NCBI GenBank assembly: GCA_016748015.1
Contig: JAAOMT010000760.1
Location: forward strand, 167,609-231,608
DNA length: 64,000 bases
Direction of reading: 5' to 3'
Source: Geosiphon pyriformis
Lineage: Eukaryota > Glomeromycota > Glomeromycetes > Archaeosporales > Geosiphonaceae
The translations under genes were made by a program, and so were the position numbers. Positions 12,678 through 57,740 of the stretch are shown piece by piece. The notes under the pieces are model-generated. The model saw nothing but the letters and a program-made list of their open reading frames with translations, searched no databases and was not told the origin of the DNA. Numbering within the stretch: position 1 is the first letter of the stretch; each line of letters starts with the position of its first letter.

Positions 12678-12685
12678 GAACTACA

Positions 12686-15600: not shown

Positions 15601-17372
15601 GGGCCATTTCAATTAAAGCTATAAGACGGGTGTTTGTGAAAACACCTTCCTATTTATATGGTTTAGGAATTATTGAAACCCAAGCTTCTTTCCAAGGCCC
15701 AGAGACTGACTCGCCAACCAAACAGAAATTCAAGAGCACCAAAAGCATATTCAAAACAAATTTGTCACAATGTTTCCATAATTCATTGAAGATACCAGAA
15801 AGACCAGCTGCTTTTCCATCAGGAAGATCCTTAACAACAGCTGACAATTCATCAAAACTAATCGAACACATGACATCAGAAAAAGCACCATCGAACACAT
15901 AATCCAGAGGCCAATATTAACGAGCCCAATCCTCAGACAAGTTAGACACCATCTCACGTTTTCTGGTCCATCCCTCTATAATTTTGTCCACCTTAGACTT
16001 AACCAAAACAGGCTCTAAAATCAACTCATTATCTACAACCAAATGATCCAGGACCATCTTGTGAAAAAGATGCTCCAAAACACTCCTAATGGTGTGACTC
16101 TTGTTCAGCTCAAAACTTTCCATCTTCTTACCAATAGCCTGCTTGATCGAGGATTCCTCAGCGCACTTGGATTTCACTAATTTGAAGGAGCAGTATGATT
16201 TTCTTGCTTTGGCCAGCGCAGAACAAATAAGATTAAAATTAGAACCTGAAAGAAACAGAGACTTAACCACTGATGCACCAGGAGAGTCGAGTCTGTGCCA
16301 CACCTCCAACAAAGAAGCAAAACCATCACTAGAAGCCTAACGCAAAGCCTTGACCAACTTAGAAACCAGCAGCTCCAGTTTGTGAAACCTAGAAGAGGTC
16401 TTGGTAAACACGCCATCAAAACCTTTGAACCATTTTTTCTTAAATGTACCACCTGCTAAAAGAACCATAATCTTGCGAACAATGTCCCACATAGCGTCCA
16501 AATCTGAAAATCTTACTGCCACACCAAAAGCATCCGAGAACATAGAGACATTAGCAGCTGAGGCATCCCTGAACTCCAACCACTTAGCTTCATTGGCATT
16601 TTTAACATCAAACTTCCAATGGTCTTTATTCGCTTGCTTGCAAAGAGAATTCAAACACGTATTCAAGAGCCCGCCCAAACCCAAATCCACTGAAACAGCT
16701 TGATGGTCTGTGTCAAAATGCTTACTGACATTCAAAACTTTATGATACACTATTGCATTGACAAGACTTGAGGAGACAAACATGTAATCAATTGTTTTTT
16801 TAACACCCCTAAAATTTTTCCAAGTGGACATTTTTGCAGCCGAGCTACCAACTAAAGAATTAACTAAACCCAAATCAAAGCATCTTTTGAAACTTGCACT
16901 TTTATGAGAGCCGTTTTCATTAAAATCGCCACTGAGAATGATGAAAGAAGATTCGTTGACAGTCTTCACAATGAGAGAATTGATTTCATTAGCCTGAGAA
17001 AACCAAATCACCGAAGAAGCACCAGCATAAAGCCCCAAAATTGACACAGAAAGTTTGCTCTTGAAAAGTAATTTAATGGAAAAGAGCCGACCAGGCACCT
17101 CAGAAACCTTGCACACATGATGAGCCAGAAATGTCTATGATAACAGCAACACCTGCACCCAAGTGACCGGAGTTCAAACCAGAAGAGAACACTCGGACAC
17201 CATCAAACTTGTTTGCAATCCATGGACGAACCCTACTTTTTAATTTCATTTCAGTAACAATAGAAACCAAATTGTTCATTTCCTTATGCCACCTAATAAT
17301 GTCCTCTTGCTTAGTGGGAATGTTCATGCTCCTGATGTTGCACATAGCAACTTTCCAGACTAAACTGCTCAT
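12686..17372 (-). pseudogene. LINE ORF2 (endonuclease, RT, RNase H, zinc finger), copy 3
   Basis: About 1560 codons. ATG at 17372 (MSSLVWKVAMCNIRS). APE-type endonuclease about 17370-16650 (TEMKLKSRVRPWI, SGDFNENGS, DTDHQAVSV). RT about 15900-14650 with FVDD at 15059-15070. RNase H about 14000-13580: YTDGS at 13952-13966, ELQAIALALE, SDSQAAL and GHSSVLGNEHADTLAK. RVT-type zinc finger CLFCGNVETSNHVFLC about 13230-13180. One small deletion near 17132 shifts frame (only the first ~80 codons are out of phase). Stops near 16334, 15915, 15648, 15384, 14652, 13446, 13365 and 13079 are each a CAG/CAA or TGG codon changed by one transition, judged by alignment to sister copies. Not functional as read. 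Confidence 0.92.
17369..17372 (-). promoter_or_regulatory. ATGA stop-start overlap of ORF1 and ORF2
   Basis: ORF1 ends in TGA, of which the TG also belongs to the ORF2 ATG. The same TCAATGA context is present at 3562 (copy 1) and 10452 (copy 2); in copy 4 it is altered to ATAA (33107-33104). Conserved ATGA-type overlaps in LINEs are known to permit termination-reinitiation; that mechanism is inferred here. Confidence 0.65.
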
Positions 17373-19162
17373 TGAGTGAGGGGTAGAGACACCGAAAGCA
17401 CACCTATACTATTCACTTTGGCCGAAAGGCCCAGAACCATCTCCATTAGACACTTCATGCTGTCTTCCAGCTTAGACACCGAAGACATATCAAAAGACAC
17501 TGCTCCTGCGACATTCCCACCACTAGTGGACACATCTGAACCCTCACTCATCACTACATCTGCCCCTTGATCCTGTGATGAAGGAGTCACCAATGGCTGA
17601 CATCCAGGGCTAGGCTGGGGAACCGTTGGCCCGAGTGCATCCAATCTCTTAGCCAGCTTACCAACTTGCTCCGCAAGGCTGGTGAGACTGCACTCAAGAG
17701 CGGCGAACCTATTGTTGACTTCTATCACAACCGGTTGGGATGGCTTCATCTCCGAAGAGGAACCATTATTCACCACAATGTTTTGACCAGAAAGGGGGGG
17801 CGAAAAAGATCCGCGAGCAACCTCTGCTTAAGAGAGACCACCAAAAGAGACCGGATGGGCAACTGGAGCCAAGCGTTTGGCATAGATGGTTGCTAGCCTG
17901 CTTTTATTTGTATCTGAGAAAACTCTACACAGCAAACTACCAAAAAATAATTTCCCACCAACTGCACAACCCAATGACGTGTGACCCAATTTCTCACACT
18001 TGGCGCATTTAGCAGAAATGAGGCGAGACCAGTGAAGATTGGTGTTCCTGAGTACTGGCGTGGTTCCCACAGCAGCATCCAATGATTCAGCAGAGTCGAA
18101 ACAAACAACAACACACCTGGCCTGAGCATACGTAACTGAATAACGATCAATGACACACGTTTTCCCACTCACAGATCTAACAAAGTCCCAGATATCATGA
18201 GCGTTGGTCCCCATCAGCAATGTGTATAGCAGTGCCTTATGTTGGTCCCTTACATCCCATGCTTTCTTGTCTGAATCAGCCCTAGCCACATGCACAGCAT
18301 CTTTCCCGATTAAGATGGACCACTCAGCTGCGACCAAATCAGCCTGATCCAATTGTTCGAATTCTACCATCGCCTTCTGCCACAGCCCGATTAACTGCAT
18401 CTTAATTGCCTTAATAACTCCAAACTCGGATAGTGCAGTGCGCACAGCCTCAGCCGATGTTCCAATTGGAATTTTTTTCACGACCACAGCCTGATCTGAT
18501 CGCCCAGATGATCTCTTAAGATCGGTGTTTACCATAATATTCGCACCAGTAGCCTTTTCAGTGGCCTTTATTAGACCCGATTCGGAAGTGAATGTCACTC
18601 TGATGATCCCTGAGAATTTTGAGGGGGTAGATGCCCCCCCAAAACCATTAATTCCAGAAAATAATTTTCTCACCACCACAAGCTTTTCCTGAGAAGATTT
18701 GCCGGCCACTTTATCCAAGCCAATATTCAATGCAAATGACTTCCTGACTGGAATGTTGACCAAATTTTTCATAGAAGGAGGGAGCTCAAGAGGAGCATCC
18801 GAGAGAACACCATCATCACTACCATCTTTTGAGAAGTCAATCTTTCCCAACGGCTTGCCCAATGTCTTTTTGGTTCTAACCTTCGAACTCATGGGCATCC
18901 AATCATAATTTCCACCAGCCAGAGCTCCACCTTCATCATAATCAAAGCTGGTTTTCTCTACCAGACACTCCTCTTCCATATTGACACTTTCAGACTCAGT
19001 AGTGTTCCCAGTCTCTGAACCCCATGAACAAACACCAGGAACTCCAGCAGCAACCTCTCCATTATCAACACCCTCTGCCAACGCACTTCTCTTCCTCTTC
19101 TTCTTTGATGCAACTGCCTTAAAACCACTCTCAGAACCAGAAACTTTAGCAGTTTTTTTCAT
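17369..19162 (-). pseudogene. LINE ORF1 (RRM and CCHC protein), copy 3, one stop
   Basis: 597-codon frame with a single TAA at about 17828 that reads as CAA (Gln) to TAA; the frame continues unchanged to the TGA at 17371-17369. N-terminal basic, Ser-rich part (KKKRKRS near residue 20, a possible nuclear signal), RRM about residues 225-300 (AVVVKKIPIGT, LSEFGVIKAIKMQL, KAMVEFEQ), a second RRM-like unit, and an intact zinc knuckle CAKCEKLGHTSLGC (CX2CX4HX4C) near 18010-17965. A Leu-rich coiled-coil-like segment follows at about 17700-17640. If the single stop were read through, this would be a complete ORF1 product. It overlaps ORF2 by ATGA. Confidence 0.9.
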
Positions 19163-19303
19163 AACAGCAATAACGGAGCCAACAGTAGCCTCGTAATCGA
19201 AGAATAGTTTTGATTTATCGTACTGAATAGTAAAAAACTTCTTTCAAAAAAACTTTTGACTCTTTTTTTGGGAATTTTGAACGAAGGAAAGAAAGAAGTT
19301 TTT

Positions 19304-19315: not shown

Positions 19316-19511
19316 ATTATTATACCAATAATATTATAATTATTAATAAATATTACATATTTAAAACTTTTATAAAAATTAGTTGTTTTTTATTTAGACA
19401 ATATTAATATTTATTCATTTATTTTAAAACTTATTTTTACTATTTGTAAAAATTAAAATTTAATATTAAAAAAATTATTTAACAAAAAAAATTTAATATT
19501 TTTATTTATTT
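19316..19511. other. AT-rich spacer
   Basis: Very AT-rich, no open frame and no recognisable repeat beyond short A or T runs. Confidence 0.6.
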
Positions 19512-21733
19512 ATTAAAGTTTAATAAATATGGTCTAACTATTACTTAGTACTTTAGAAAAAACTAAGTTTCAAACTAAATAAAGTTTATGTGTTTTCTAT
19601 ATATAACTAGCTACTTAAGTCAGTTTAAATTATACTATGCTGTTATTTTATAAGAAAACTTGTCCAAAGTAGATATTTTTTGAACAATATCAAACAAAAT
19701 AAGACTATTAAAAAACCAATTTAATAAACCATTCAGCTGTTTTCATAAAACAGAATTTAACTTTAAAAGATTTAAATTCTTAGACTGCCATTAACTCATT
19801 AAATACTTTATCACTTATTTTAACTAGAATTTTAGAAACATCAGACATATCAATATTTTTTATGTTATACTCTGTTTTTAATACTACTATTTTTTTTCAG
19901 CTTATTAACAAATTTGCTAAAAGCACCCAAATACATTATAAGCTTATTGATCTTGTTTTTAAGCTTGTTGCTTAACACAAAATTACCCTTAACAAATTGT
20001 TTAAAAGTAGTTACCAATGCACCAATAAACTTAATAATAAATTCAACCAAAGTTAACAACTTGGCCAAATTAGATACCAACTAAAACAGAATCAAAAAAT
20101 TATTTTTAACTTCAGAAAAAAAAATAAAAGTCACTAATAAAAAGAAATCAGAATAGCCCAAAGGAACAAACAATTTAACATAAAACAAACATCTTAAAAG
20201 TTTTAAAAAAAAGAAGTAAAAAAATCATATAATCTACAGCCAAATAGTCTATTTTTTAACATCTGAAACAGCATCAACAACTGGAAGTTTTTTATTAAAT
20301 ATAACATTTTTTCAGTATACTAGTCTTAATAATAGCAGCATCCAAATTGACTGGAATCCAAACATAACCAAAACAAACCAGAAATAATAACCAAAATTAA
20401 AAGAGCAAAAGATAAAACAAAATCTAACCACCAACTTAAAAGATCATATTACTGATTTTAAACATAATACAACCAAAAAAAAAGTTAACCAACTTGGTTT
20501 TAAACTTATTATAAAACAAAATAGTTTCATTTTAATTTACCAAAAAGAAAATTCTAACACTATTTTTACTCACCAAAACTGACCAATAATTTAAAACAGA
20601 TACAATAGAGTTCAGTTTTTTAAAATAAACAACTATATATTGCCAAATACCAGCAGACTTTAGCACAACATGAGTAACTTTATTAAACACATTAAAAGCT
20701 GTCTTAATATTAGCAGTAAATACACCCAAAGACACATTATATAGCACAACAATAGCAGAAAAAAACCAGACTTAAAAATTATTAAAGACTTGGCAATTTT
20801 AAGAGTAGTTAAATAAACAGAACTTGTAAGCTCCACCAAAAAAGCAGCTTTTAAAAACTTTTAAAAAGCAAATTTTATACAAAAAAGTTTCACATTGTTT
20901 TTTAACACTAATTTTACATCTAAAAAACCATGTACAAACTGAAAAACAGCTTTAATATGAGTCAATTTGATCTTAAAATTAGCATTAAGCACCAGAATAG
21001 AAACCATCTACTTAGCAAACTTTTAACAACTAAAAATAGTTTTTTAAGTATCATTAATAGTAGCATCAGAAACTAGCAAAAAAAATAATTTAGTTTCTAT
21101 TTGGTCAGCCCAATTTTCAAGAACAAATAATACTATAGAAGATAGTTGTTTTGTTTTTAAAATTAATAATAATCTACTAAAAGACATCATATTTGGCAAT
21201 ACAATTAGATCTTGGCCTATTTTAAATAATGTAACAGAAATTTTATCTAAAATTTTATTAGAAACCACAAAAAAGTTCAGTATAATAATAGCAGAAATAA
21301 GCAACTGCCCTTACTTTTCTAAACTTTTGGTTTTTTTAACTATTTTTTGAAAAAAAAATGCTAATAACACTTAATATAGAAGTTATAAAAAAGAAAACCA
21401 GTTTGTTAACCAGTTTGTTATTAAAAATTTTTAGGCTCTTTAAAAGAATAAAGGCAATATTGAAACTAATTTAAATATGTCTTTTTGAGGAAATTTTGAT
21501 TAATAAAAACTAGTTAAAAATAAAAAAAATGATTTAGTAGCTATCAAATACAGTTTTTTATAATTATTAGATAAAAAAAGACTTCTAAAACGTTTTGCCT
21601 AGTTGCTTTTATAATAGAGAAAGTTTTTTTGATTGAAATTTTATTAAATATTTCAAGAAAGATATTATGTACAGCTTTTTTACTTTTTGCTCTAATTATG
21701 GTCATAAAATTAAGAAAAAAAAGAATTATATTG
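19512..21733 (-). mobile_element. ORF1-only retroelement, decayed full-length copy
   Basis: Same layout and length as the well-preserved element at 34201-36491 but heavily AT-converted. The 3' hairpin region is at 19604-19626. ORF1 remnants follow in order: coiled-coil part near 20080-19865, RRM part at 20747-20532 (corresponding to 35480-35280), the NWADQIETKLF segment near 21110 and the N-terminal part near 21700. There is no room for, and no trace of, endonuclease, RT or RNase H. Ends are estimated by alignment to 34201-36491, so they may be off by tens of bases. Confidence 0.75.
19604..19626 (-). promoter_or_regulatory. Degenerate 3' UTR hairpin
   Basis: RNA-sense arms AAACTGACT and AGCTAGTTA still form most pairs (A-T, A-T, C-G, T-A, G-U, C-G, T-A) despite heavy mutation of the rest of the element. 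Equivalent to 34304-34326. Confidence 0.45.
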
Positions 21734-22717: not shown

Positions 22718-23975
22718 ATTTTTGAACTCTTTTTTTTTCTTATTTTTATAATTGTAATTAGAATTAAGAATAAAAAAGAATCTTTTGTTATTAAAGCAAT
22801 TAAATAAAATATCTTGACAATATTTTTTTTAAATATTAATAGTAAAAAACTGTTTTTAATGATTTTTAAAGCATTTTTTATTTTTAATTAATGGTTTTTT
22901 TCTAGTCAATGTTTTTTTTCAAAAAACATATTTGGATCAATTTTGGTATTGTTTTTATTTTTTTTAAGAGCCTTAAAATTTTTAATAATAAGCTAGTTAA
23001 CAAATTGGTTTTTTTTGTTTTTATTATTAATACTATCATTATTTTTTTGTAAATGATTAAAAATATTAAAGATTTCAAAAAACTGTAGCAGTTATTTGGA
23101 TTTGTTATTGTTATATCAAACTTTTTTGTAATTTTAAATAAAATTTTGAATAAGATTTTTCTAAAAACAGTTAGTTTTTTTTCTTAATATAAATAACAAT
23201 AACAATAATATATCTTTTAAAATAAGCCAAAATTAACTATTAATTGTGTTATTAAATATGATTTTTTTTAACAAATCATTGCCAATTCTAAAAGCAAAAC
23301 ATCTATTAAGTTATTTAATTTTAAGAATTAAATTAATCAAATAGAAATCAAATCAATTTTTTTTTCTTTTTTAATACTGTTTTTAGTAATATTTAAAAAA
23401 CAATTTTTAGTTGTCAAAAATTTTTTGTATAATTGTCTTTATTTTGATATCTAATACTACTTTCAAAATTAAATTGGTCTTGGTTAATTTTTTTGTTTTA
23501 TTTGTTGTTTGGCTTTATTAAATTCAAATTAATTTTTAAAAATAACATTAAGTTGTTTTGTATGAAATTTGTTTTTGAAAATTTTTTGGTTGTTATTGTT
23601 AAAATTTTTATTAATGGTTTTTTTTGATTACATTTAAGATTACAAAATTTTTTGTAGTGTTTTCTGGCTTTTTTTTTATTTTTGTTGTATTTTATAATAT
23701 TTTTCTTAGTGTTTTTAGTGTTTTTAATTTAGTTAAATTAAAATTTGCTGGCTTGTAACAATATACTGTTGTTATTTTTAAAAACTCTTTTTTTACTGCT
23801 ATTGTTTTTAATAATTAGTCTGTGTTAATTAAAAAAGATAGTATTTAGATCTTTTTTTCTAATTAAAGAAAAATTATTGTTTTATATAATATATTTTCAA
23901 AATCAAATTAATAAACTTTTTTTTCGATCATACTGCTTTTGAAATTAGTAATATGATCTAAAAAATTTGGAAAAT
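22718..23975 (+). mobile_element. ORF1-only retroelement, plus strand, truncated by the next copy
   Basis: Plus-strand decayed copy starting near 22718 (GAACTCTTT leader) with the N-terminal segment (about 22760-23000), the NWADQIE-equivalent near 23330, and the RRM region near 23680-23800 (TTTGCTGGCTTGTAACAATA corresponds to Pro-Ala-Gly-Ile-Trp-Gln-Tyr). It stops around the second RRM, at 23975, exactly where another copy begins. Identified by ordered similarity to 36460-35160 read on the minus strand. Confidence 0.65.
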
Positions 23976-24795
23976 ACAACTAAAAAAAACTCTTTGTATT
24001 TTTAATTTTATAATTACAACCAGAACAAAAAATAAAAAAACTGTAACTAATATCTCCTCTTTGGTATCTTACAAAGTTTTAAACAAAAAAGTTTTTTCTG
24101 TTATAAAAGCAACTAAACAAAACGTTTTAAAAGCTTTTTCTTAGCTAATAATAGTAAAAAGCTGGTTTTAATAACTGTTAAAACATTTTTTTTATTTTTG
24201 GCTGGTTTTTTACCAGTTAAAGTTCTAGTGTTGTTTTTATCTTATTCAAAAGCCCAAAAGTTTTTAATAATAAACTAGTTAACAAGCTGGTTTTTTTTTA
24301 TAGTTTCTATATTTGGTGTTTTTAATATTATTTTTTTAAATAAAATAATTAAAAAAACCAAAAATTCAAAAAAATAAAAACAGTTATTCATCTTTGCTAT
24401 TGTTACACCGAATCTTTTTGTAGTTCCAAATAAGATCTTATATAAGATTTCTATTATATTATTTAGTAGTCTATCCAAGATAGACCAAGGTTAATTATTG
24501 GTTATATTACAAAATGTAATTTTTTTTGACAAATAATTACTGGTTTTAGAAACAAAACAGCAGTCTTTTGTTGAATTATTTGTTCTTGGAAATTGGGCTG
24601 ATTAATAAAAACTGATTCAATTTTTTTTTGGTTTTTACTGCTGTTACTGGTAGTATTTGAAAAATTATTACTAATTATTAAAAGTTTGCTAAGTAAATAA
24701 TCTTTATTTTGGTGTCTAGTATTATTTTTAAGATTAAATTAGCTTATGTTAAGACTGTTTTTTAGTCTGTACATGGTTTTTTGGTTTCAAATAGT
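23976..24795 (+). mobile_element. ORF1-only retroelement, plus strand, 5' part
   Basis: Begins with a leader resembling the 5' end of the 34201-36491 element (ACTCTTTG then ATTTTATAATTACAACCAGA), so the 5' terminus is present. ORF remnant: ITTRTKNKKTVTNIS near 24010, then KATKQNVLKAF near 24105, NNKLVNKLVF-like near 24270 and GNWAD near 24590. Similarity fades after VHGFL near 24780. It appears joined head-to-tail with, or inserted into, the copy at 22718-23975. Confidence 0.65.
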
Positions 24796-28297: not shown

Positions 28298-28305
28298 ATA
28301 AATTT
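28298..28305. repeat. Target-site duplication of LINE copy 4, left
   Basis: ATAAATTT, repeated at 33277-33284. The position coincides with the gap between the two blocks of the inverted duplication. Confidence 0.7.
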
Positions 28306-28403
28306 TTTTTTTATTTCATTTTACAAGTGAGATCCAAACACTACCTAGTATAATACATTAACAACTAATCTAAACTAGACATGAATCATGCATTTTCTAT
28401 ACA

Positions 28404-28426
28404 TGACCAGCCACTTGGGCTGATCA
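28404..28426 (-). promoter_or_regulatory. 3' UTR hairpin of LINE copy 4
   Basis: RNA-sense arms TGATCAGCC and GGCTGGTCA pair at all nine positions. Relative to copy 3, both G-U pairs have become Watson-Crick (C-G and A-U) and one C-G has become U-G, so pairing is kept through changes on one arm. This is the best evidence that the stem is selected or was selected in the source element. Confidence 0.68.
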
Positions 28427-28434
28427 GAACCACA

Positions 28435-31400
28435 CTAAGTGCCTATATGTACTAAGACTGAATCCCCAACACCTGAGAAAAACAAACAAGACTTACGAAA
28501 TCCAAAACCAATACCAATTGCCTTAGTAATACTCAGCAACTTAACAATACCTACAAAAAGCTCCGCAGGAAGCCCTGTAACCAAAACTGAAGCTGAACCA
28601 TCACATAGTATCATCCCACTTTTCTCCATGTAGGCATGATGCTTAGCACAAACCAACCAAACTTTGTCCCTAAAAGTAAGACACAAGTTACATACAAATT
28701 CTATAATTCTCTGACCAGCTATTTTGGCACCTCCAAAAACAGATGTAGCTTCCCAAAGCCATTCTTTAAAAACAAAGCCCTTGCAAAGAGCTGTGCAAAC
28801 TGCAACATTTAAGGTACAAGCAAACAGGAATTGAGAAACACTTAAAAAAGAGACAGAAAGACCAGAAAGTGCACTCCAAACAATAACATGGGCATCCAAC
28901 AAGTTACAATAAACAGAATTATCAATTACACATGAAAAAACGTAATTAGAAACCTTAATCTCACCACAATAAGACACAGCACACTGGAGTAGTATCTGTT
29001 ATACAGTCACTTCCAAACAGCAACTGGCAGCTAATAGTGTAAAGCTTTCATAAAATATGTGCAAGTGCCAGCCATAGATTTACTGGTAAAGCCAGCAGTC
29101 ATATGCAAATCTGGATGCCACACCAATGACAATTTAAGTCAATCAACATTCAAGTACAGACTATTATCCAAAACCCTAGAACTTAAACCAACCTCTCAGC
29201 ATACATGAAAAACAGATCTAAAGACCTCATGAACAAAATGTCTAGAATTACCAAAAATGACATTTCTACCAGCTAAAATACGACACTCCTTTACATGAAG
29301 AATAAAACACCAGGAAGAGAGAAATGCCGCATCAGCAAGTGCATCAGCATGTTTGTTATCCACGACACCCAAATAACTTTTTATCTTGTGCCAGTTAACA
29401 CTTAAATCTTTTTTTCTAATAATGTTTACAATGTGCTAATGTTCAATCCAACAGTGATTCCAAAAATCTGGATAAACAAGACCTAATTCCAATTTGCACA
29501 CATTCAAGACAGCTTGATTGTCCATAAAGACACTAACTGAGCAATTAGAAGGAACACACTCAAAAACCAATGTAATGATCTGCAATTCAGCCAAAATAGA
29601 AGACATTAAACCAAAAACTCTGACCCCCAAACTCAGACTTATATTCTCAAAAAAGACCATAGCATTAGCTCTCATGTCAATACTTCCTAAGCCCTTTAGA
29701 GATCCATCTGTATAGACAGAAAAGCTGTCAGTCTCAAAACCTAACAACTGACCAGAAATCAATCCAAACTTACTAGATTCTAAAATATCAAAAGGTTCAG
29801 TGACACCTACAAAAAAAAACAGGCAGAGGAAAAAGCAATACCCTCAAGAAAGTTAACAGAAAGTCTAAACCATTCAGGAATAGGGCCACATAAATTCAGC
29901 TTTTTCTAATACTTGAATGTCCTCCAATCAAAAACAGCTCCATTTTTACCATGGAGCTGTTCAATAAAAGCAATACCATATCTTTGAAGGGACAGAAGAA
30001 ACTTAAAGTAACCAGTCTTGCCAAAAACAGACAACATAGAAGTTCCACCATAAAAATGGAAAGAATTGTTCACATGATCATTCAAAAACAGACCATACCC
30101 AAAAAAAATGCAAACCATACCTGCCAAAAATTTATTAGAAGCACTGATTTTGATATGAGCTGAGAACATCAACAAGTGAAGTAAACTCCAAGACAAAACC
30201 TGCAAGTCATATGATCTGTGCAAAAACAACCAACCCAAAATCTCAACAGAGTTTGCAAAGCACATAACAAAAGCAACCTTACTTTCAGCTTGGACTTGCT
30301 CAAAAGTTTTCAAACCATACAATAAAGAATGATAAAGTGCATCATTGGAAAAATTGAGAAGTAGACTAAACTTCAGTTTTAAGCCTCTGTAAATCAAAGA
30401 ATTCCACTTATTATATACACCAATAGGAACAAAAATAAACCATGTTCTGTAGCTGACAATAGAATAAAAAACTGCCAACACCAGATACGAAAATTGTTTG
30501 TCAAAAATAGTCTTTCTTAGAACCAAATTGGTAAAAAACTTAACATTAGAATTTGCCTTAGCCAGACTAGGCTTCAACAAACTCTTAGTCAATAAAAATA
30601 TCTCCAAATAGTGATAAGACTCTTCTTTCTTGGCAATGAATATAGATAAATCACTGATAGACAACTTAGGACATGTAATTCTGCAATTAATAAGAATTAC
30701 CACTGTCTTGTTATTGTTAATAAAAATGTCATTGATTCGAAAAAACTTATTAACAACATTGAAAATGTGTTGGATTGCAGCTTGGCTGCTACCAATCTAG
30801 ATTGTGTTATCAACAAAAGCACTAGCAGCAAGAAAAAACATCAATCCAGTTTAAGATTCTATATAACCAGATCTGGCAACAAAATAAAAGTTCAGCCTAT
30901 AATTACATATACTTTCCTGTTTTTTAACTTCACACAAAAGAGGATTATAAAATATACACCAAAAAAGTGGTGAGAATACCTTCTTCTGATCCAAACTATT
31001 ATGTACTTGATATCTATTTGTCAGACCAAAATCTGTTATCACTCTATTAACACAACCATTGTGAATGTTACCAAAAAATCTAATAAACTTGTTGCACATT
31101 TTTATTCTGAATAAACTGTTCCTAAGATGTTCCCACCTAACAGAGTTATAAGCCTTTTATGTTTTGCAAGACCAACCAAAGTTCATGGTTTTTTTCCAAG
31201 ACATTCTTAATAACTAAACCTATGACAAAAATAAGAGATTGTGTTGTTGTACCCTTTAGAACCGAGAAATTATTCTCATACAAGATGTTAAAAAAGCTGC
31301 ATGCCAAAAAAATTCTGTCCGAGAAAATTTTGAAAAGGATTTTACAGGTGGTCTTGATTAAAGCAATAGGTTAAGTGTTTGTAAAAACTCCCTTCCACTC

Positions 31401-33107
31401 ATATGGTTTTGGAATTATTGATATTCAAGCTTTTTTCCAAGTACTAAGCACTAACTCATGAGACAAACAGAAGTTCAAAAGCACCAAAAGCATATTCAAG
31501 ACCAATTTGTCATAATACTTCTAAAGCTTGTTTGACACCCCAAAAAAATCAGCAGTTTTGCTATCAGACAGATTAAAAATCACTTCAATTAGCTCATCAA
31601 AACTAACTGAACACATTACAGTTGAAAAAGCATCATTAAAAACATACTCCAAAGACCAATATTAACAAGACCAATCACCAAAAAAATTCTTCATCATACT
31701 ACACTTCCTGGTCTAACCTTCTATGATAACATCAACTTTGGTCTTAACTAGGTCAGGTTCCAGAATCAGTTTATCTTCAACCACCAGATGGTCCAAAACC
31801 ACTTTTCAAAAAAGACATTCCAGCACACTTCTAATTGTATTACCTTTGTTGACTGCAAAATTCTCCATCTGCTTATCAATAGCTGACCTTATTCTTGATT
31901 TTTTAGCTCGTAAAAACTCAGCAAGCTTGGAGGCATGATATGTTTTTTACATACTGAAAAAAACCAAACACACTTGATCAAAACCCACACCAAAGTTCAC
32001 AATTTCTTGCACAATTGAAGCTTTAACACTGTTCAAAGAATTCCAGTAGTCCATAAAAAAAGTGAACTTATCAACATCTTCCTTATAAAAGGCCTTAGTA
32101 ATCTTTAAGACCAAAAGCTCCAGCTTATGAAACCTAGAAGATTCCTTAGTAAAAATACTATCAAAGCTCTTAAACTATTTCTTTTTGAATATCTCATTAG
32201 CTAAAAGTGTCATAATCTTGCAAATCATATCTCACATCACATCCAAGTCCAAAGATTGTTTGGAGGCAGTAAAATTATCAGAGAACATAGCAGCATTGGC
32301 TGCTGTAGTATCTTTAAACTTGTTTTACTTTACATTATCAGCCTCTTTAAAATCAAACTTCCAGCAATCCTTATTTGCCTGCCTACAAAGAGAATTTAAC
32401 TGAATATTCAGCAAACTGCTCAGACCTACTGACACAAAAACAGCTTGATGATCAGTATCAAAGTGATTCCTAACATCTATGACATCGCGATCTACTACTA
32501 CATTAACTAAATTTAATGAAACCAATACATAATTAATTGTTTTTTGAATTTCTCCATGTATGGCATTTTATGATCAAACTATCCATTAAAGAATTGACTA
32601 GCCCCAAATTGATATGTTTTTTAAAACTAGCACACTTTTGCAAACCATCTTCATTGAAGTTACTACCAAGGACAATAAAAAAAGATTCATTAACAGTCTT
32701 TGTAATAAGAGAGTTGATTTTACCAATCTGTAAAAACTGAATTCCAGATAAAACACCAGTGTAAAGCCCCAAGACTAACACAGAAAGTTTATTTTTGAAA
32801 AAAAATCTAATAGATAAGAGCTGACTAGGCACTTCAAAAACCTTATACACATGTTTTGTCAAAGAAGAGTTTATAACAATGACAATACCAGAACCCAAAT
32901 ATTCAGAATCCAAACCAGAAGTAAAAACACAGACACCATTAAACTTATTAGCAATCCACAGATGAACTTTACTTCTCAACTTAGTTTCTGTAATATTGAA
33001 ATCAAATTATTCATGTCCATATGCCAATGGACAATATTTTCCTGTTTTGTAGAATTGTTCATGCCCCGAACATTACACATAGTAATTTTCCAAATTAAAT
33101 CAATTAT
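28435..33107 (-). pseudogene. LINE ORF2, copy 4
   Basis: Recognisable pieces: endonuclease 32979-32325 (IANKFNGVCVF, GSNFNEDG with the first catalytic Asp lost, DTDHQAVFVSV), RT with an F-D-type box damaged near 30810, thumb region 30703-29906, RNase H 29762-29436 with YTDGSLKGLG intact, and C-terminal zinc finger CGEIKVSNYVFSC near 28960-28925 whose first Cys pair and His are altered. The ATG start is changed to ATA at 33107. Many stops; dead. Confidence 0.85.
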
Positions 33108-33276
33108 TAAGATGAAAAGAGAGTCAATAAACCCATATCAGAACACAGATGGTTCAACCTTCCTAAAACTGAATAAATTGAAGTCTCTAAAGCCACTATT
33201 TTGGATTCTAATCTACCCACTTTAGTAGTTAGAACCTTAGAACTATTAGAGCTGAAATCAGCCATCAAGTTCAAAC
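33108..33276 (-). pseudogene. LINE ORF1 C-terminal fragment, copy 4
   Basis: Encodes a decayed equivalent of the ORF1 C-terminal coiled-coil segment (SSKVLTTKVGRLESKIVALE, comparable to copy 2 near 10590). The element is broken at 33276, next to the TSD. Confidence 0.7.
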
Positions 33277-33284
33277 ATAAATTT
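33277..33284. repeat. Target-site duplication of LINE copy 4, right
   Basis: ATAAATTT, identical to 28298-28305. Confidence 0.7.
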
Positions 33285-33730
33285 ATATTTAATTTGTTAA
33301 AATTTAATTTATTTATATTAATGCTATTAGTATTTATAATACATACTTAATAATACTAAAACAATAACTTTTAATTATAATTATTAATAAAATATTAATT
33401 TTTATTTTATTATTTTTTTGTTTGGTTTTTTGTTTTATTAATTGATTAAAAAAAAATACCAAAATTATAATATTAAGAATTGTTTAATAAAAAACATCAA
33501 AAAAGAGCATAAATATAGTCATAAAAATTAAAATTACTTATAAAAAAAATATAAATGCCAAAATAAATTAGTTATGATGCCAAAATAAATTAGTTATGAT
33601 GCCAAAAGTTAAATATTAAGTATTATCTATTATTACAATAATTTTTGTTTATTATACAAAAAACTTTATTATTAAAATTTTTAGAAAATTTTTAAATTAT
33701 AGCAATAATTAATTTAAGTATTAAGTTATA
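33285..33730. repeat. Inverted duplication, left arm, inner block
   Basis: Reverse complement of about 37420-37800, for example AATAACTTTTAATTATAA, AATAAAATATTAATTTTTAT, AATTATAGCAATAATTAATT and TTGTTTATTATACAAA. Contains a local 22-bp tandem duplication (33555-33598) that the other arm has once. From 33731 to 34188 similarity between the arms is weak. Confidence 0.75.
33555..33598. repeat. 22-bp tandem duplication
   Basis: Two exact copies of a 22-base unit (ATGCCAAAATAAATTAG followed by TTATG), then a partial third copy ATGCCAAAA. The right arm carries one unit near 37550, so this expansion is later than the inverted duplication. Confidence 0.8.
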
Positions 33731-34188
33731 AAAAAATCTATATAATTTATAAAAATATTATAATAACATACTTATTAAAAAATATTGCTATGTAATTTTT
33801 TAACAAATTGATTCAAAATTTGAAATATTATATAATAATTAGCATAAATAATAGTAAAAGTATTCTAAAAATATAGTAATTTTTTTGTTATTTTTTTGTT
33901 TAATAGTATTAAAATGTTTTTGTAATTAAATAATATTATTATAATTATTAAAATAACACAAAAATATGGTTTTAAATTTATTGATTAATATAAATTTAAT
34001 AATAAAACTTTAGTATTATAAATTGATTATATTTTATAAAAAATATAAAATCATTTAAAAAACTTTAATATTATTCTAATTATTAATAATAATAGCTTTT
34101 TTTATACTATTAAATTATATTTAAGCATTATTTTTTTTACTAATAAATTTTTTTATTTAAAATATATGCTATTAGTACTATTAATAAG
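33731..34188. other. AT-rich stretch without genes
   Basis: No gene; T/A-rich sequence, possibly the centre of the former palindrome. Confidence 0.55.
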
Positions 34189-34200
34189 AAAAATACATAT
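34189..34200. repeat. Target-site duplication of ORF1-only element, left
   Basis: AAAAATACATAT, exactly repeated at 36492-36503. Confidence 0.85.
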
Positions 34201-34303
34201 TTTTTTATTATTATTTTTAACGAGTGAGACCCATATACTACCTAAAACTATGATACCACAGAAGGAATTATATTATAAGTGTAAATCATGTGTTTTCTAC
34301 ATG

Positions 34304-34326
34304 TGATCAGACACTCGGCCCAATTA
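34304..34326 (-). promoter_or_regulatory. 3' UTR hairpin of ORF1-only element
   Basis: RNA-sense arms TAATTGGGC and GTCTGATCA pair at eight of nine positions (one A-C mismatch, three G-U). Sequence differs from the LINE hairpin at several positions while the stem and 5-nt loop are kept, consistent with a shared structural signal. Confidence 0.6.
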
Positions 34327-34334
34327 AGAACTCA

Positions 34335-36461
34335 CTATGCTAAATCAAAAGTAGGTAAAAATAACCTCAATCCACAAATTCTCTTAATGATACCATTCAG
34401 ATTTCTAGAGTCAAAAATAAACTTACTAAGAAACAATCTAGTAGACTCAATATTGCCCCTGGTCTCAGCACCAGACATCTGCCACAAAGTGATAACACAT
34501 TCAATAGTGTTCTCACTTAAAAAAAAAGGCTTAACAGCCAGCATATTATCATAATTTATATCACCAAAGTCAATTTCAGATCTAAGCCAAACAATGTCCT
34601 TGGAAACTCTGACCATAAGGTTAGAGAAATTGTTAGCAGCACTTTTCATGGAAATGATATCTTTCTCAACCTGAACAGTCTTAACAGCATTATCATCAAG
34701 AAGATGAGACACCAAAGCAACCAAAAAACCAACAGACTCAACAATAGACTTAACCAGAGCAGCCAAATCCGAAATCTGCTTTTCCAAAGAGTCTAATCTG
34801 GAACCAACAGCAAGATCAGCAGCAGAAGCAGCCAAAGGAGCCACTAAAGGAGAAAACTCAGAAAGACCAGAAGGAGCAGCAGTCTTGGCATATAAAGCAG
34901 AACTCACAAAACAAAACTTGAAAACCTTGAGAATCTTGGGAGTGGAAGGTGGAGAAATCTTGCAATCCATGGCCAGATGGCCCATTTTTTGACACCTAAA
35001 GCAGCGCTGGCAGCCAGGAGTTTTCCACCAGATACAGCATTTCTTTAGAGTACTAGTCTTGATTACAGCAGAACCCAAATCACTTTGAGAGTCAAATGTA
35101 ACCAAAGCAAACTGGGAACAATGACCAGAATCAGGAGAATGAGGAATGAAACATGTTCGACCACCAATCTGAGAAATCATATTACTAATTTCAAAGGCAG
35201 TACAGCCAGAGGAAAGGTTGACCAATTTGGTCTTAAACTTATCATGAGACAAAATAGTCTCATTTTGATTTACCAGAGGGAGGATTCTAACACTATCCTT
35301 GCCCATTAAGACTGACCAATGCTTCAAGACAGACACAGCAGAGTCCAACTTTTCAAAATAAACCACCACATACTGCCAAATGCCAGCAGGCTTCAACACA
35401 ACACGAGTGACACTACCAAATACATTGAGAGCCAACTTAATGTCAGCAGCAGACACACCCAAAGGTACATCACGCAGCACAATAGTAGCAGAAGAGGAAC
35501 CAGATTCAGAAACCACCAAAGACTTGGCAATTTTGAGATTGGCCAAACGAACAGAACTTGTAAGCTCAACTAGAAATGCAGCTTTCAAAGACTGTTGAGA
35601 AGCAAACTCCATACAGAAAAGCTTTACATTGTCTTTTGAAACAGATTTAGCATCCAAAAAACCATGCACAGACTAAAAAACAGTCTTAACATGAGCCAAT
35701 TTGATCTTAAAAGTAGCACCAGGCACTAGAGTAAAGGCCATTCACCCAGCAAACTTTTGACAACTAGTAATAGTTTTCCAAGCACCACCAGAAGTAGCAC
35801 CAGAAACTAGAGGAGGAGATGAATCAGTTTCTATTTGATCAGCCCAGTTTCCAAGAACAGGTGATCCAACAGGAGGAGATTGTTTTGTTTCTACAACTGG
35901 TGATGATCTGCCAGAAGACACCATATTTGACAACACAACCAGTGATTGATCTTGGCCTATCTTGGATAACGTGCTAGATAATGCTATGGAAATCTCATCT
36001 AAGATCTCATTGGGAACCACAAAGGGGTTCAGTATAACAATAGCAGAGGCAAGCGACTGCCCCTACTTTTCTGAACCTTTGGTCTTTTTGACCATTTTTT
36101 TTGAAGAAGAAGTGCTAGCAGCACCAGATGTTAAAGCTATGGAGAGAAATACCAGCTTATTTACTAGTCTATTATTAAAAACTTTTGGGCTCTTGGTTGG
36201 GGTGGAGGCAACACTGAGACTAATCCAGGTGTGTCTCTTTGAGAGGACTTTGACTGGTGAGAAACCAGCCAAAGATGAGAAAGTTGCTTTAGTGGCTACC
36301 AAAGGCAGCTTATTATGATTACTGAGTAAGGGGAAGACTTCTAAAACGTTTTGTCTAGTTGCTTTTACAACAGAGAGAGCTCCTTTGGTTGAAATTTTAT
36401 TAGATATCTCAGGACAGATATCAGGTGCAGCTTTTTTACTCTTTGCTCTGGTCATGGTCAT
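34335..36461 (-). pseudogene. ORF1-like RNA-binding protein with two RRM units and CCHC knuckle, three stops
   Basis: Single frame of 709 codons from MTMTRAKSKKAAPD (36461) to a stop at 34335. It is interrupted by TAG near 36065 (Gln codon in context SEK-Gln-GQS), TGA near 35743 (probably Trp) and TAG near 35674 (Gln), each one transition from sense. The longest uninterrupted part is 35669-34335, 444 residues. RRM 1 about 35540-35280 (ATIVLRDVPLG, FGSVTRVVLK, WQYVVVYF); RRM-like 2 about 35240-35060; zinc knuckle CFRCQKMGHLAMDC, CX2CX4HX4C, near 35010-34970; Ala/Leu-rich coiled coil (LEKQISDLAALVKSIVESVG) about 34800-34700. Homologous in its centre to LINE ORF1 but with its own N- and C-terminal parts. 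Probable role: binding element RNA. No enzymatic domain. Confidence 0.85.
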
Positions 36462-36491
36462 AAAATTAAGGAGACAAAGAGTTTCTAATGT

Positions 36492-36503
36492 AAAAATACA
36501 TAT
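36492..36503. repeat. Target-site duplication of ORF1-only element, right
   Basis: AAAAATACATAT, identical to 34189-34200. Confidence 0.85.
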
Positions 36504-41376: not shown

Positions 41377-41660
41377 ATACTTATATCTAATAATATTTAT
41401 TATATTTATTATAAAATGGTTTTAAAAAAAATATATTTTGGCAAATAATAGTTTTATTTATTTTGTAATTTACAATTACTCTGTTTTGTTATTTATTAAG
41501 ATTATTTATTTGTTAAATATTTATAAAACACTAATAAAGCTATTTTTTGACCAATTTTTCTTATTAAATATATTAAAAGCTTTTATATATAGCTGCTTTA
41601 ATCTAATAATTTCTGAAAATATTTATTATTTTTTTTATTATATATATAATTTTTTTTTAT
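41377..41660. other. AT-rich spacer
   Basis: Contains an open plus frame (41438-41695) of Phe/Ile/Tyr/Asn only; this is what AT-rich DNA gives by chance and I do not call it a gene. Confidence 0.6.
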
Positions 41661-43912
41661 TAAGATTTAACAAATATGACCCAATTATTATCTAAAAATT
41701 AGAAATAAACTAAGTATTTCAATATTAAATATAGTTCACATACTTTTTATATATAACCAATTACTCGAGCCAGTTTAGACTATATTATATTAATACTCTA
41801 AAAGAAAACTTATTCAAAGAAGATATTCTTTGAATAATTTTAAACAATATAACACTATTACTAATTAATTTAATTAGCTACTCAGCCGTTTTTAAGGCAT
41901 TAGTCTTTATAGTAACAGATTTATGTTCTCAAAGCAACATTAAATTAAAAAACATATTATCATTAACAGCAAACAAACTTACATAGAGGCCAAATATATA
42001 TTTTTATAGTTATAATCAGTTTTTAAAACAATTATCTCCTATTTTAGCTTACTAATAGTCTTACTAAAAATATCTATATATATCAAAATTTTATTAATCT
42101 TAAAGCTAAAAACACTACTTGAAACCAAATTCTCATTAATAAATTGTTCAAACAAAATAATTATAGAACTAACTGGTTTAATAATAAATTTAATCAGAAT
42201 AAAGAATTTGGCTAAATTAGATTTCAGAAAGACTAACTAAAAAAAAATTATAGAATTATTAGCCACTATATTAATAGAAAAAACTAAACCAACCAGAGAA
42301 CAAAAAGCCAAAAAAGATACAAAAACAGTAGCTTTAACATAAAATTTGCTGTCAATAATACAAAAAATAAAAGCCTTAGGAATTTTAAGAGAGAAAAATA
42401 GAGACATTTTACAATTCAAAACCAGATAATTCAAACTCTAACACTAAAAACAGTACTAATTTTTAAGAGTCTCTTATCAAATATGATATTTTTTTAGCAT
42501 ATTAGTTTTAATAACTGCAATATTCAAATTAATCTAAGATTTAAATATAATTAGAGCAAACTGGAAATGACAATCAAAATTAAAAGAACAAAAAATAAAA
42601 CATATTTGATTATTAACTTAAAAAATTATATTATTAATTTCAATAACAGTACAGCCAAAAAAAAAATTAACCAATTTGGTTTTAAACCTATTATAAGACA
42701 AAATAGTCTTATTTTAATTCACTAAAAAAAAAATCCTAACACTATTTTTATTCACTAAAACTAACTAATAATTTAAAACAGATACAACAAAGTCTAATTT
42801 ATTAAAATAAATAATCATATATTGTCAAACACCAGTAGACTTTAATATTATATGAGCAATCTTACCAAATATACTGAAAGTTGTTTCAATATTAGTAGTA
42901 AACACATTCAAAGACATATTACACAGTATAATAGCAGCAAAAAAAAAATCAGTTTTAGAAATTACTAAAGACTTTGTAATTTTAAAAGTAATTAAACAAA
43001 CAAAGCTCATAAGTTTAACTAAAAAAGCAGTTTTTAAAGACTTTTAAGAAGCAAATTTCATATAAAAAAGCTTTATATTGTTCTTTAATACTGATTTTGC
43101 ACTCAAAAAACTGTACAAATTAGAAAACAGTTTTAATATGAACTAATTTAATCTTAAAAATAGCATTAAACACCAGAGTAGAGACTATCTACTTAGTAAA
43201 TCTTTAATAACTAAAAATAATTTTTTAAGTAGAAACCAAAGAAAAAATTGAATCAGTTTTTATCTGATTAGTTCAGTTTTTAAGAACAGATAATTCAACA
43301 AAAGACTATTGTTTTGTTTTTAAAGTTGGTGATAATTTGCTAAAAGACATCATATTTAATAATACAGTTAGTGACTAATATTGATCTATTTTTAACAATA
43401 TACCAAATAATAAAATAGAAATCTCATCTAAGATCTCATTTAGAATTACAAAAAAATTTAATATAACAATAACAGAAATAAGCAATTGCTTTTACTTTTT
43501 GAAATTTTTGGTCTTTTTGACCATTTTTAAAAAGTGGTACTAGATGTAACAGCAATGATTGAAAAGATCAGCTTATTAACTGACTACTATTAAAAACTTT
43601 TGAATTCTTGGTAGAAGTAGAGACAACACTAAAACTAATCTAAGTATATCTTTTTAAAGAAATTTTAACTGGTAAAAAATCAGTTAAAGATGAGAAAAAT
43701 ACTTTAATAATTACCAAAAACAGCTTTTTATTATTACTAACTAAGAAAAAAGCTTCTAAAACATTTTGCTTAGCTGTTTTTACAACAGAAAAAACTTTTC
43801 TGGTTAAAACTTTGTAAAATACCAAAAAAAAGATATTAGTTACAGTCTTTTTACTTTTTGTTCTGATCATAGTCATAAAATTAAGGAGATAAAAAGCTTT
43901 TTTTTGTTTATA
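41661..43912 (-). mobile_element. ORF1-only retroelement, decayed full-length copy
   Basis: Same layout as 34201-36491: 3' region with hairpin at 41754-41776, ORF1 remnants in order (coiled-coil part about 42240-42000, RRM about 43010-42750, N-terminal MTMIRTKSKKTVTN at 43876-43640) and leader near 43890 (AATTAAGGAGA shared with the best copy). No ORF2 between. Strong loss of G and C relative to the best copy. Confidence 0.78.
41754..41776 (-). promoter_or_regulatory. Degenerate 3' UTR hairpin
   Basis: RNA-sense arms AAACTGGCT and AATTGGTTA keep six to seven pairs. Equivalent to 34304-34326. Confidence 0.4.
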
Positions 43913-50277: not shown

Positions 50278-51573
50278 TAAAGAAGTATAAAAAATATTAA
50301 ATACTTTTATAATATATTATATAAAAAAACTAACTTATGAATTATTAATTTTTTATTATTTTATTTAATTCTTATTTGTTTTAAAAATAACTTGAACTTA
50401 ATATAAAATAAACTTGATCAAATTATAGTAATTTATAGGTATTATATTCTATTTTTTCTTAATTCACTATTTTAATTGTACAATATTTAAGAGTTGTAAA
50501 TTATATTAACAAATTTTAACTTCAATATATTACCAAAAATTTTTTATTAAAGTAATATCAAGACTTTGTACTGGCCAAAAAAGTAATTCGCTATTTAAAG
50601 AAATAAAAAAAAACATGTAACTTTAATATATAAATTGGTATATTGTTTTTTTTGCATAAAGTTTTACCATAAGAATTGCATAATTAGCCAAGATTTTATG
50701 GTGTATAACTCCAATTATATGACCAATTAAAAGAACTAAAGAATTTAAACCAATTCATAAAAAACATTTTCAAAACATGTAATCAAAGCTTTTTTTAATT
50801 AAAACTATAATACAATTCTTATAAAATTTTTTAGAAAGTTTATGCTATATATATCCAAATTCTGTAGTTTTAAATTATGTATATATAGATTTATTTAACT
50901 AAATAATTTGTTTAAAATTTTTTACTGTCTAATTTTTATAAGTATAAATCTATTATAAATGGTTTTTTTATTTAATTTAAAAATTAATGGCTCAAAACAA
51001 AAAATATATGAGTAAAGTCTTTTTTAAACTAATTTATTTCAAATAGTTTATATAGAAATAGATTTGTTGGTATTTTTAATAAAATTCAATTATATTTAAG
51101 AAAAAGTTTGACCAGCAGATTTTTTTATTTTCTATTATTAAATATTTAAGTTGTTTATATATATATTTATTAAAAATTTGTGATTAGTTTATTCATTTTT
51201 TAAAAAGTTTTTTGGCTTGTATAACTTTTATATATGTATTACAAAAAAATATAAATATACAATAATCATGAAAATTTTACTGTTTGTATGCTTTAACTTT
51301 TTTGCTAAAATAATCTTTTTTTTTTGCTATTTAAAAAGTTTTTTCTAAGACATATTTAATATGATAAATTTTTTTATGCCAAAAATATTTGATATTTTAT
51401 ATATACATATATAATCTACTATTATATTTTATAAGAACACAATTTATGTTAATTTATAAATTATAACTAAAAGTAATTATAAAAAAATTATGGCTTAAAT
51501 TAGTAATAGTATTATAATATATAGCTTTTTTTATATATTATATTAAGTATTCAATATTTTTTATATTCTTTTA
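50278..51573. mobile_element. Tc1/mariner-like TIR element, decayed, copy 1
   Basis: Collinear with 53331-54682. Terminal sequences TAAAGAAGTATAAAAAATAT and, in reverse, TAAAAGAATATAAAAAATAT are inverted repeats of one another, and TA lies outside both ends. No transposase reading frame survives. The family is suggested only by TIR form, TA target and length (about 1.3 kb). Confidence 0.6.
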
Positions 51574-52120
51574 TATATATTATTTAAAATATATAAAAAT
51601 AATATACTAAAAATATAATAATAATAATAATATAAGTGTTTTAAATTTTAAAATACAAAAAAATATTAAAATTGAATATAATAGAATAGTTAAACACAAA
51701 TAATTAATTAAAAACACAATTATTTTAGGCAATCTAATATAATTTCATATTAATAAATAATTAAACAAATAACAATATTTTTAAAACATAAAAATTAAGC
51801 TAATTAAAATCAAAATTTTAAATAATCTAAATTATAAAATATTAAATTAATATTGATAAAAAGAATAAAAAAAAATTTATATTATTTTAAATATTATTTT
51901 TATTTATTTGATTTTAATAATTCAATATTTAAATTCGATTTTTTCAATTCTTTTAAAACTCTTAATAAGATTGATTTTATCTTTTTTAAGTACTTAGAAA
52001 AAATTACCAAATATGTTATTTTTACAAAACTAATAAGCTTTAAACCAAAATTTATAATTTAAATAATATGGTATTATCCGAGTAGAAAAAACCAATCCAA
52101 AGTTATGGAGAAAATATGAC
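51574..52120. other. AT-rich stretch without genes
   Basis: A Phe/Ile/Lys-only frame at 51853-52062 is of the kind expected by chance. Nothing else seen. Confidence 0.55.
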
Positions 52121-52300
52121 CAAAAAAATATGACAATACGAAATAACACAAGATAACACGTAATAATATAAGATAATATGTTATAACATAGTATAATGTG
52201 TAATAATATAGAATAATGTGTTATAACATAATATAATGAGTAATAATATAAAATAATGTGTTATAACATAGTATAATTAGCAATAATATAGAAAAATGAA
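52121..52300. repeat. Minisatellite with 20-bp subunits and 40-bp period
   Basis: From 52141 on, units fall exactly every 20 bp: alternating TAATAATATA-type and TTATAACATA-type halves give a 40-bp higher-order period (52161, 52201, 52241). The leftmost unit (52141-52160) has AACACA and AACACG where the next units have AATATA and AATATG, i.e. C in place of T. Confidence 0.8.
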
Positions 52301-52631
52301 GCAATAACAGAAATAATAAAGCAATTTTATAGAACAAAAAGAATATATAAAAACGAATAACTGTAAAAATTAGAAAAACATTTAAACAAGAATCAATTTT
52401 CTCTTTTTCCTTATAATTATTATATTTTATAAAAATAAAAGACTTATTTGAAAAACCACAAAATTATTAATATATGGTCATCAATTATCTTATGTTTGAA
52501 TTGAACTAATTCTTGTTTTATATTTTTATTCCAGGACAAATGTTCTTAGTATAAATACTTTGAATTCTTAATAACTGGACTAATTGCTTTTGATTATAGC
52601 AATTAATGATACTAATACATTTTCTTTTATT
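52301..52631. other. AT-rich stretch without genes
   Basis: No gene. Somewhat less AT-rich in places (around 52500-52600) but with no ORF. Confidence 0.5.
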
Positions 52632-53330: not shown

Positions 53331-54682
53331 TAGAAAAGTATAAAAAATATTAAATACTTTTATAATATATTATATATAAAAAAACTAACTTATAAATTAT
53401 TAATTTTTTATTATTATATTAAAATACAAGTTAGTATTTTGTTTGATTTTTATTTGCTTTAAGAATAACTTAAACTTAACATAATATAGACTTGATTAAA
53501 TTGCAATAATAATTTATAAGTATTGCATTTTATTTTTTCTTAACTTATTGTTCTAATTATATAATATTTGAGAATTGTAAATTATGTTAATAAATTTTAA
53601 CTTTAATATATGACCAAAGATTTCTTATTAAAGTAATATTAGAACTTTGTGTTGACCAAAAAAGTAATTTAATATTTAAAAAAGTAAGAAAAAATGTGTA
53701 ACTTTTAATATATAAATTAATATATTGTTTTCTAAAAAAAAAACTTTTTTTTAGTTTTTTTTGTATAAAGTTTTATTATACAAATTGTATAATTAGCCAA
53801 AATTTTATGATATAAAACTCTAGTAATATGACCAATTAAAAAAATTAAAAAACTCAAATTAATTCATAAAAAACATTTTCAAAATATGTAATTAAAACTT
53901 TTTTTTAACTATAACTATAATACAATTCTTATAAAATTTTTTAGAAGGTTTATATTATATATATCCAAATTTTGTAGTTCTAAATTGTATATATGTAAAT
54001 TTATCTGACCAAAAAACTCATTTAAAATTTTTTACTGTTTAATTTTTATAAGTATAAGCCTATTGTAAATGTTTTTTTTATTTAATTTGAAAATTAATAA
54101 CTTAAAATAAAGAATGCATAAGCAAAATTCTTCTTAAGCTAATTTATTTTGAATAATTTGTATAGAAATAAATTTGTTAGTATCTTTAATAAAATTTAAT
54201 TATATTTAAAAAAAGTTTAGTAACAGGCTTTTTTATTTTCTATTATTAAATATTTGAGTTGTTTATATGTACATTTGTCAAGAATTTATAATTGGCCTGT
54301 TTATTTTTTAAGAAGTTTTTTTAGTTTATATAACTTCTATATATATATTATAAAAAAACATGAATATTTAATAGTTATAAAAATCTTACTGTTTATATGT
54401 TTTAATTTTTTTGCTAAAACAATCTCTTCTTTTTGGTATTTAGAAAGTTTTTTTTCAAGACATATTTAATATAGTAAATTTTTTTATAACAAAAATATTT
54501 GATATTTTATATATATATATAATTTACTATTGTGTTTTATAAGAACGCGATTTATGTTGATTTGTAGATTATAACTATAAGTAATTATAAAAAAAATTAT
54601 GGCTTAATTTGGTAATAATATTACAATATATAGCTTTTTTTATATATTATATTAAGTGTTCAATACTTTTTATACCCTTCTG
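53331..54682. mobile_element. Tc1/mariner-like TIR element, decayed, copy 2, 1352 bp
   Basis: Left end TAGAAAAGTATAAAAAATAT; right end read in reverse CAGAAGGGTATAAAAAGTAT. Over the first 29 bases the two ends differ only by transitions, so the right end keeps the original (CAGAAGGG). TA flanks both ends (53329-53330 and 54683-54684). Internally collinear with copy 1. A plus frame at 54254-54469 contains an R-I-Y-N-W-P segment that might derive from a DDE-type WPAxSPDLNP block; too decayed to rely on. Confidence 0.65.
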
Positions 54683-57328: not shown

Positions 57329-57394
57329 AGTTTCATCGATTAGATTTAAGGATAAAATGCAATAATTAATTGTCACAAATACATGAATTTGACC

Positions 57395-57720
57395 CAAAAA
57401 TTATCCTTAATTCTTATTATCAAATTAGAATACATTACGATCCAAATCATTCTATTAATAACCCTATACAATATTCTAAACTATGTAACGTTGAAAAGTT
57501 TGCCAAAATGTAAATACTTACTGAAATTTATCTATATTTTAAAGAAATTTACTAAAATATTGTAAAAATAATAGTGTTAAAACTTAAGATATTATTATTT
57601 AAAAATGTATAAAGAAAAACTTTTTTTAAAAAAAAATATCTTAAAAGTTTTTAATATTTAAAATAAATACAATTTATTAAAACAATTCTTTTTTGTTTAA
57701 AAGTTTTTTTGAATTTATTT
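57395..57720 (+). repeat. Possible LTR fragment
   Basis: Resembles the U3 part of the LTR at 62128: CAATATTCTAAACTATGTAA and TTTGCCAAAAT at 57468-57510 correspond to CAATACCCTGAACCATATAA and TTTGCCGAAAT near 62310-62345. The match is short and fades after about 57560. Confidence 0.4.
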
Positions 57721-57740
57721 TATTGTATTATAAATTAATA

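Follow-up and report, generated by a model that had tools for sequence, protein, structure and literature searches.

An ORF1-only retroelement family with a 3' tail in common with the resident LINEs

The reference element and its surroundings

The stretch of DNA analysed here, hereafter the window, is 64,000 nt long with a G+C content of 29%, in a genome of 124.7 Mb. On its minus strand lies a 2.29-kb retroelement made up, from 5' to 3', of a 30-nt leader, a 708-codon frame, a tail that runs for about 119 nt from the stop codon, and a terminal A-rich stretch. A preliminary description of this DNA had placed at 34201–36491 an element with one RRM/CCHC ORF1-like gene, devoid of endonuclease and reverse transcriptase (RT) and bounded by a perfect 12-bp target-site duplication (TSD); all of this is borne out, given that the frame is present with three in-frame stops, that Pfam finds RRM and CCHC domains only, and that AAAAATACATAT stands on both sides of the insertion. 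The parts are the following:

34201–36491, minus strand: ORF1-only retroelement, reference copy (5' end at 36491, 3' end at 34201; profile match 34202–36487)
36462–36491, minus strand: 5' leader, 30 nt before the ATG, which is at element position 31
36435–36461, minus strand: start of the frame, MTMTRAKSK; homologous in its DNA to the LINE family A leader (20–22 of 27 nt)
34335–36461, minus strand: ORF1-like frame, 708 codons plus stop; in-frame stops at codons 133, 240 and 263 in the reference copy
34917–35813, minus strand: core homologous to LINE ORF1, aa 217–515, with RRM-like domains and a CCHC knuckle (27–32% identity, E 1e-19 to 1e-34; Pfam RRM_1 and zf-CCHC)
34959–35006, minus strand: CCHC zinc knuckle (zf-CCHC at aa 486–501 of the equivalent intact ORF)
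34217–34337, minus strand: 3' tail in common with the LINEs, beginning at the stop codon TAG (LINE-tail profile match 34217–34336, E 1.7e-15; predicted branched RNA structure)
34189–34200, no strand: TSD, 3' side, AAAAATACATAT, perfect 12 bp
36492–36503, no strand: TSD, 5' side, AAAAATACATAT, perfect 12 bp

Other copies in the window were located with an element profile based on 39 copies, among which are the window's three full-length ones, and a plain BLAST comparison of the window gave the same relations among them. All three full-length copies previously reported were recovered, the two older ones in a heavily degraded state; as to the three reported fragments, two are found on the plus strand, and the one placed at 57741 gave no profile match at E≤10 in 57000–58376. 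These copies and the LINE landmarks used for comparison are as follows:

19507–21730, minus strand: older full-length copy with 14 in-frame stops (profile match)
41651–43903, minus strand: older full-length copy with 28 in-frame stops (profile match)
22783–23959, plus strand: fragment, profile positions 117–1318 (profile match)
23983–24788, plus strand: fragment with 5' end, profile positions 4–842 (profile match)
5653–5771, minus strand: LINE B 3' tail (profile match)
12570–12688, minus strand: LINE C 3' tail (profile match)
28320–28437, minus strand: LINE D 3' tail (profile match)
58397–58515, minus strand: LINE E 3' tail (profile match)
17372–19231, minus strand: LINE C ORF1, for comparison (ORF1 comparison)
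5563–5589, minus strand: LINE A leader homologous to the element start (leader comparison)

The resident LINE shows a weak Exo_endo_phos_2 match, a weak RVT_1 match, a clear RNase H and an ORF1 of the RRM/CCHC type. The LINE proteins of this genome appear to resemble those of arbuscular mycorrhizal fungi, and it is from this probable resemblance that we take the genome to be fungal-type. Predicted structures of four window proteins had a mean pLDDT of 43, too low for use. Between about 5600 and 21730 of the window, LINEs A, B and C and the 19.5-kb ORF1-only copy are arranged head to tail on the minus strand with gaps of roughly 20–200 nt, and LINE D has the 34.2-kb copy upstream of it, oriented alike (28300–36491). 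Outside the elements studied, a 300-nt direct repeat occurs at 50785–51084 and 53895–54194 (84% identical, 3.1 kb apart); a block of A/T-rich tandem repeats of about 20 nt occupies 52102–52301.

A dispersed family and the state of its reading frame

At least 305 genomic matches were obtained with a 33-nt leader/start pattern (reversed control, 0), and a protein search of the genome scored 95 copies. The 30 copies fetched with 1.5-kb flanks all consist of the same 2.29-kb unit, in which the tail is followed directly by flanking DNA, and the same succession is seen in 20 further, mostly divergent copies (67–80% amino-acid identity); the layout of leader, ORF end and tail junction is identical across all subfamilies. 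ORF2 was found beyond the tail in 0 of the 50 3' ends sampled, so that the share of ORF2-bearing copies in the sampled set has a 95% upper bound near 6%; on this count, and given that Pfam detects RRM and CCHC only, an autonomous LINE is rejected.

The longest words common to a copy's own 5' and 3' flanks average 8.63, against 6.88 ± 0.25 for mismatched flanks (maximum of 500 shuffles, 7.7); the A/T-rich background weakens any single TSD case, and TSDs are commoner than chance among the copies. Together with the A-rich 3' end these duplications are hallmarks of target-primed reverse transcription, and the TSD excess and the interior flanks on both sides lead us to reject a telomeric element of the HeT-A type. 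A SINE, which would have a head derived from tRNA, 7SL or 5S and no long ORF, is likewise rejected on the basis of the 708-codon ORF and of a check for a tRNA-like gene, which found none.

As to neighbouring elements, a LINE 5' region follows the ORF1-only tail in the same orientation, within about 30–500 nt, in 5 of 30 copies (L005, L006, L011, L013 and L024; a raw count), the L006 insertion itself sitting inside a LINE 5' region. A raw listing gives convergent tails 40–265 nt apart in L002, L004, L012, L025 and L030, and a further ORF1-only copy has its 5' end within about 100 nt after the LINE tail in L084 and after the ORF1-only tail in L112.

The ORF is intact over all 708 codons in two copies, L012 and L020; most copies carry 1–5 stops and differ pairwise by about 10%, with the best pair at 95% identity, so that no recent burst is seen. 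The dN/dS check suggested beforehand for the ORF1 frame has a divided outcome. Between subfamilies i and ii the fixed differences amount to 45 synonymous and 32 missense (omega about 0.28), indicating purifying selection, versus 86 and 184 among singletons (omega about 0.83; Fisher p 3e-5), a contrast of modest size: the fixed differences total 77, subfamily ii is represented by six copies, and G>A and C>T make up most of the singleton spectrum. The decay of the ORF inside subfamily i is close to neutral, again with heavy G>A and C>T change; indeed, 184 of the 276 changes private to single copies in L001–L030 are of these two kinds, an excess that decay of methylated cytosines, or a similar process, would give.

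It may thus be asked whether the family is extinct, its copies being old relics that no longer move, an interpretation compatible for the past with the one preferred below. The distances of about 10%, the stops in most copies and the near-neutral changes within subfamilies speak in its favour; set against it are the selection recorded in the differences fixed between subfamilies and the two copies that keep every codon, and we consider extinction possible, if rather doubtful. From the selection on its own ORF1 it would seem that LINE ORF1p is not a full substitute, so that the element's protein may act in cis; the sequence gives no sign of any effect on the LINE, whether by supplying ORF1 or by competing with it, as the preliminary description had proposed.

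Kinship with the resident LINEs

Over aa 217–515 the core of the element protein is 27–32% identical to the ORF1s of LINE families A, B and C and of eight further LINE copies, and neither the 216 residues before the core nor the 193 after it have a match in the LINE ORF1s compared. A tree of ORF1 cores sets every ORF1-only core, those of the old copies too, apart from the LINE ORF1s by a single branch 1.29 substitutions per site long (support 100), a topology based on midpoint rooting only and one that LINE families beyond the sample could change. The ORF1-only core is a distant relative of LINE ORF1, forming one deep branch outside all the LINE ORF1s sampled.

The beginning of the element is related to LINEs as well. 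The first nucleotides of its frame agree with the LINE A leader at 36 of 50 ungapped positions, which is above all 500 shuffles, only just; the 27-nt LINE A-family leader, compared with both strands of the window, has as its four best matches LINE A itself and, at their starts, the three full-length ORF1-only copies, and seven of the other matches in a genome search with the LINE A leader lie about 150 nt upstream of a LINE A ORF1 match. This likeness is claimed for DNA only, because in LINE A the stretch has no constant frame relative to ORF1. The correspondence of the element's 5' leader with a single LINE family, type A, is a new observation of this analysis, and it makes an ORF2-bearing ancestor likely at the root; with leader, core and tail all LINE-like, the enzyme half alone is missing, as in HAL1.

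Such an ancestor could also be invoked repeatedly, the copies then arising recurrently by deletion from an autonomous LINE that has this ORF1, in the way HAL1s derive from L1. That HAL1s arose several times (PMC5753468) and that the leader matches LINE family A lend this account some plausibility; nevertheless, leader, ORF end and tail junction coincide in all subfamilies, ORF2 is found in 0 of 50 copies, and the ORF1-only cores form one clade, standing at 27–32% from the LINE ORF1s, while the eight further LINE copies are 43–74% identical to the LINE C type. Recurrent deletion is accordingly held to be improbable.

For the 3' end, 40 LINE ends were taken, of which 38 could be used, with four from the window. 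LINE and ORF1-only tails can be aligned over about 119 nt from the stop codon TAG, with 83% identity within LINEs and 66% (i), 74% (ii), 63% (iii) and 58% (the two old window copies) between the ORF1-only groups and the LINEs; the highest average identity of a LINE tail is 78% with subfamily ii (L075) and 70% with subfamily i (L062). With a profile made from LINE tails only, a match is obtained at the 3' end of each of the 37 elements. For 36 the E-value lies between 1e-10 and 1e-27; the weakest, L019, which has an internal tail deletion, gives E 0.0015, and five shuffled sets yielded a single match, at E 0.43. Base composition is rejected on these E-values as the source of the similarity, and the LINE-type 3' region of the preliminary description is upheld; the two findings which it had named as contrary to its proposal, ORF2-bearing relatives and a 3' likeness explained by composition, were both absent from the sample (0 of 50; similarity far beyond composition).

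RNAalifold, run separately on LINE tails and on those of subfamily i, predicts the same branched fold. Pairs derived from LINE tails alone are kept in 86%, 95%, 81% and 83% of cells of the four ORF1-only groups, versus 25–52% when slid, and 5, 3, 6 and 8 pairs have, in the majority state, both partners changed; double-change cells number 252 against 87 ± 17 in a shuffled control that ignores relatedness. Element and resident LINE tails are homologous, the same predicted RNA fold being kept through compensatory changes.

One might still regard the common tail as an incidental remnant and ascribe the movement of the family to another enzyme, for example that of a LINE with relaxed poly(A) recognition, to which the A-rich end of the element would be usable. 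The sequence has drifted to 63–74% identity with the LINE in subfamilies i–iii, yet the base pairs have been maintained by compensatory changes, which argues that the fold is still in use and makes a mere remnant unlikely.

Proposed mobilisation and relation to known elements

Taken as a whole, the evidence supports the earlier proposal of a self-contained ORF1-only family (ORF2 absent from all 50 3' ends sampled, a tail of LINE type with conserved structure, TSDs, selection acting on the ORF between subfamilies), and we consider it very probable, on sequence grounds, that it is a non-autonomous LINE derivative of the HAL1/HeT-A kind, making its own ORF1p and relying on LINE ORF2p in trans. 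The ancestor would have kept a LINE-type 5' leader, ORF1 and 3' recognition tail and lost ORF2; the element RNA would serve as the message for an RRM/CCHC ORF1 protein of its own, and this protein presumably binds that same RNA; the ORF2 protein of a LINE, recognising the common folded tail in trans, would nick an A/T-rich target and copy the RNA by target-primed reverse transcription. The first of these protein steps is supported by selection and the second by the tail; target-primed reverse transcription by LINE ORF2p is suggested by the tail, the A-rich end and the TSDs.

A more elaborate possibility, to which we give very little credence, is an obligate two-part system in which the ORF1-only lineage predates the divergence of the sampled LINE families, its additional N- and C-terminal regions have become specialised in guiding either LINE ORF2p or the RNA of the lineage itself, and its ORF1 protein regulates the LINEs or is in part required by them.

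That an ORF1-only element with a coding region of its own should be unusual, as had been supposed, is not supported, since HAL1 (PMC5753468) and HeT-A (PMC5537684) are precedents. HAL1 of mammals is LINE-derived, non-autonomous and encodes ORF1p only (PMC5753468; PMC4859970), and the present family is similarly without ORF2 in 50 of 50 3' ends; HAL1, however, has several independent origins from L1 (PMC5753468), whose poly(A) recognition is relaxed (PMC3747384), whereas here one deep lineage is found in the sample, with a folded LINE-type tail and an RRM and CCHC ORF1 bearing N- and C-terminal regions absent from the LINE ORF1s compared. HeT-A of Drosophila, likewise a Gag/ORF1-only non-LTR element with an ORF under selection, has no pol, conserves gag and depends on the RT of a partner (PMC5537684), as the present family probably does; unlike HeT-A, which adds to chromosome ends without TSDs, this family occupies interior sites with TSDs. 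SINEs with a stringent LINE partner (UnaSINE1/UnaL2 and others) have a common 3' end and stem-loop recognition (PMC3747384; PMC4176376), the ORF2 proteins of stringent LINEs binding a stem-loop in the tail (PMC4176376). The folded tail in common with the LINE is thus a feature of a stringent-recognition template, to which ORF2p is predicted to bind; in contrast to a SINE, which has an RNA-gene head and no protein, the element encodes 708 aa. Non-autonomous derivatives of R2 and R2/R1 resemble the present case in being non-LTR elements with internal deletions that retain the ends required for mobilisation (PMC3414825); they are rDNA-specific, whereas this family is dispersed and protein-coding.

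The kind of element is therefore already known, and what is new is a long-lived ORF1-only lineage with a structured common tail in a fungal-type genome; a literature search came upon no ORF1-only LINE described from fungi, which is weak evidence of absence. By analogy, the family can be regarded as an old, well-kept fungal-type counterpart of mammalian HAL1 and fly HeT-A. A deep single lineage with a selected ORF1 and a compensated tail fold makes it testable whether ORF1p acts in cis on its own RNA and whether ORF2 recognises its template by fold and not by sequence, the tail alignment providing a ready-made set of natural mutants.
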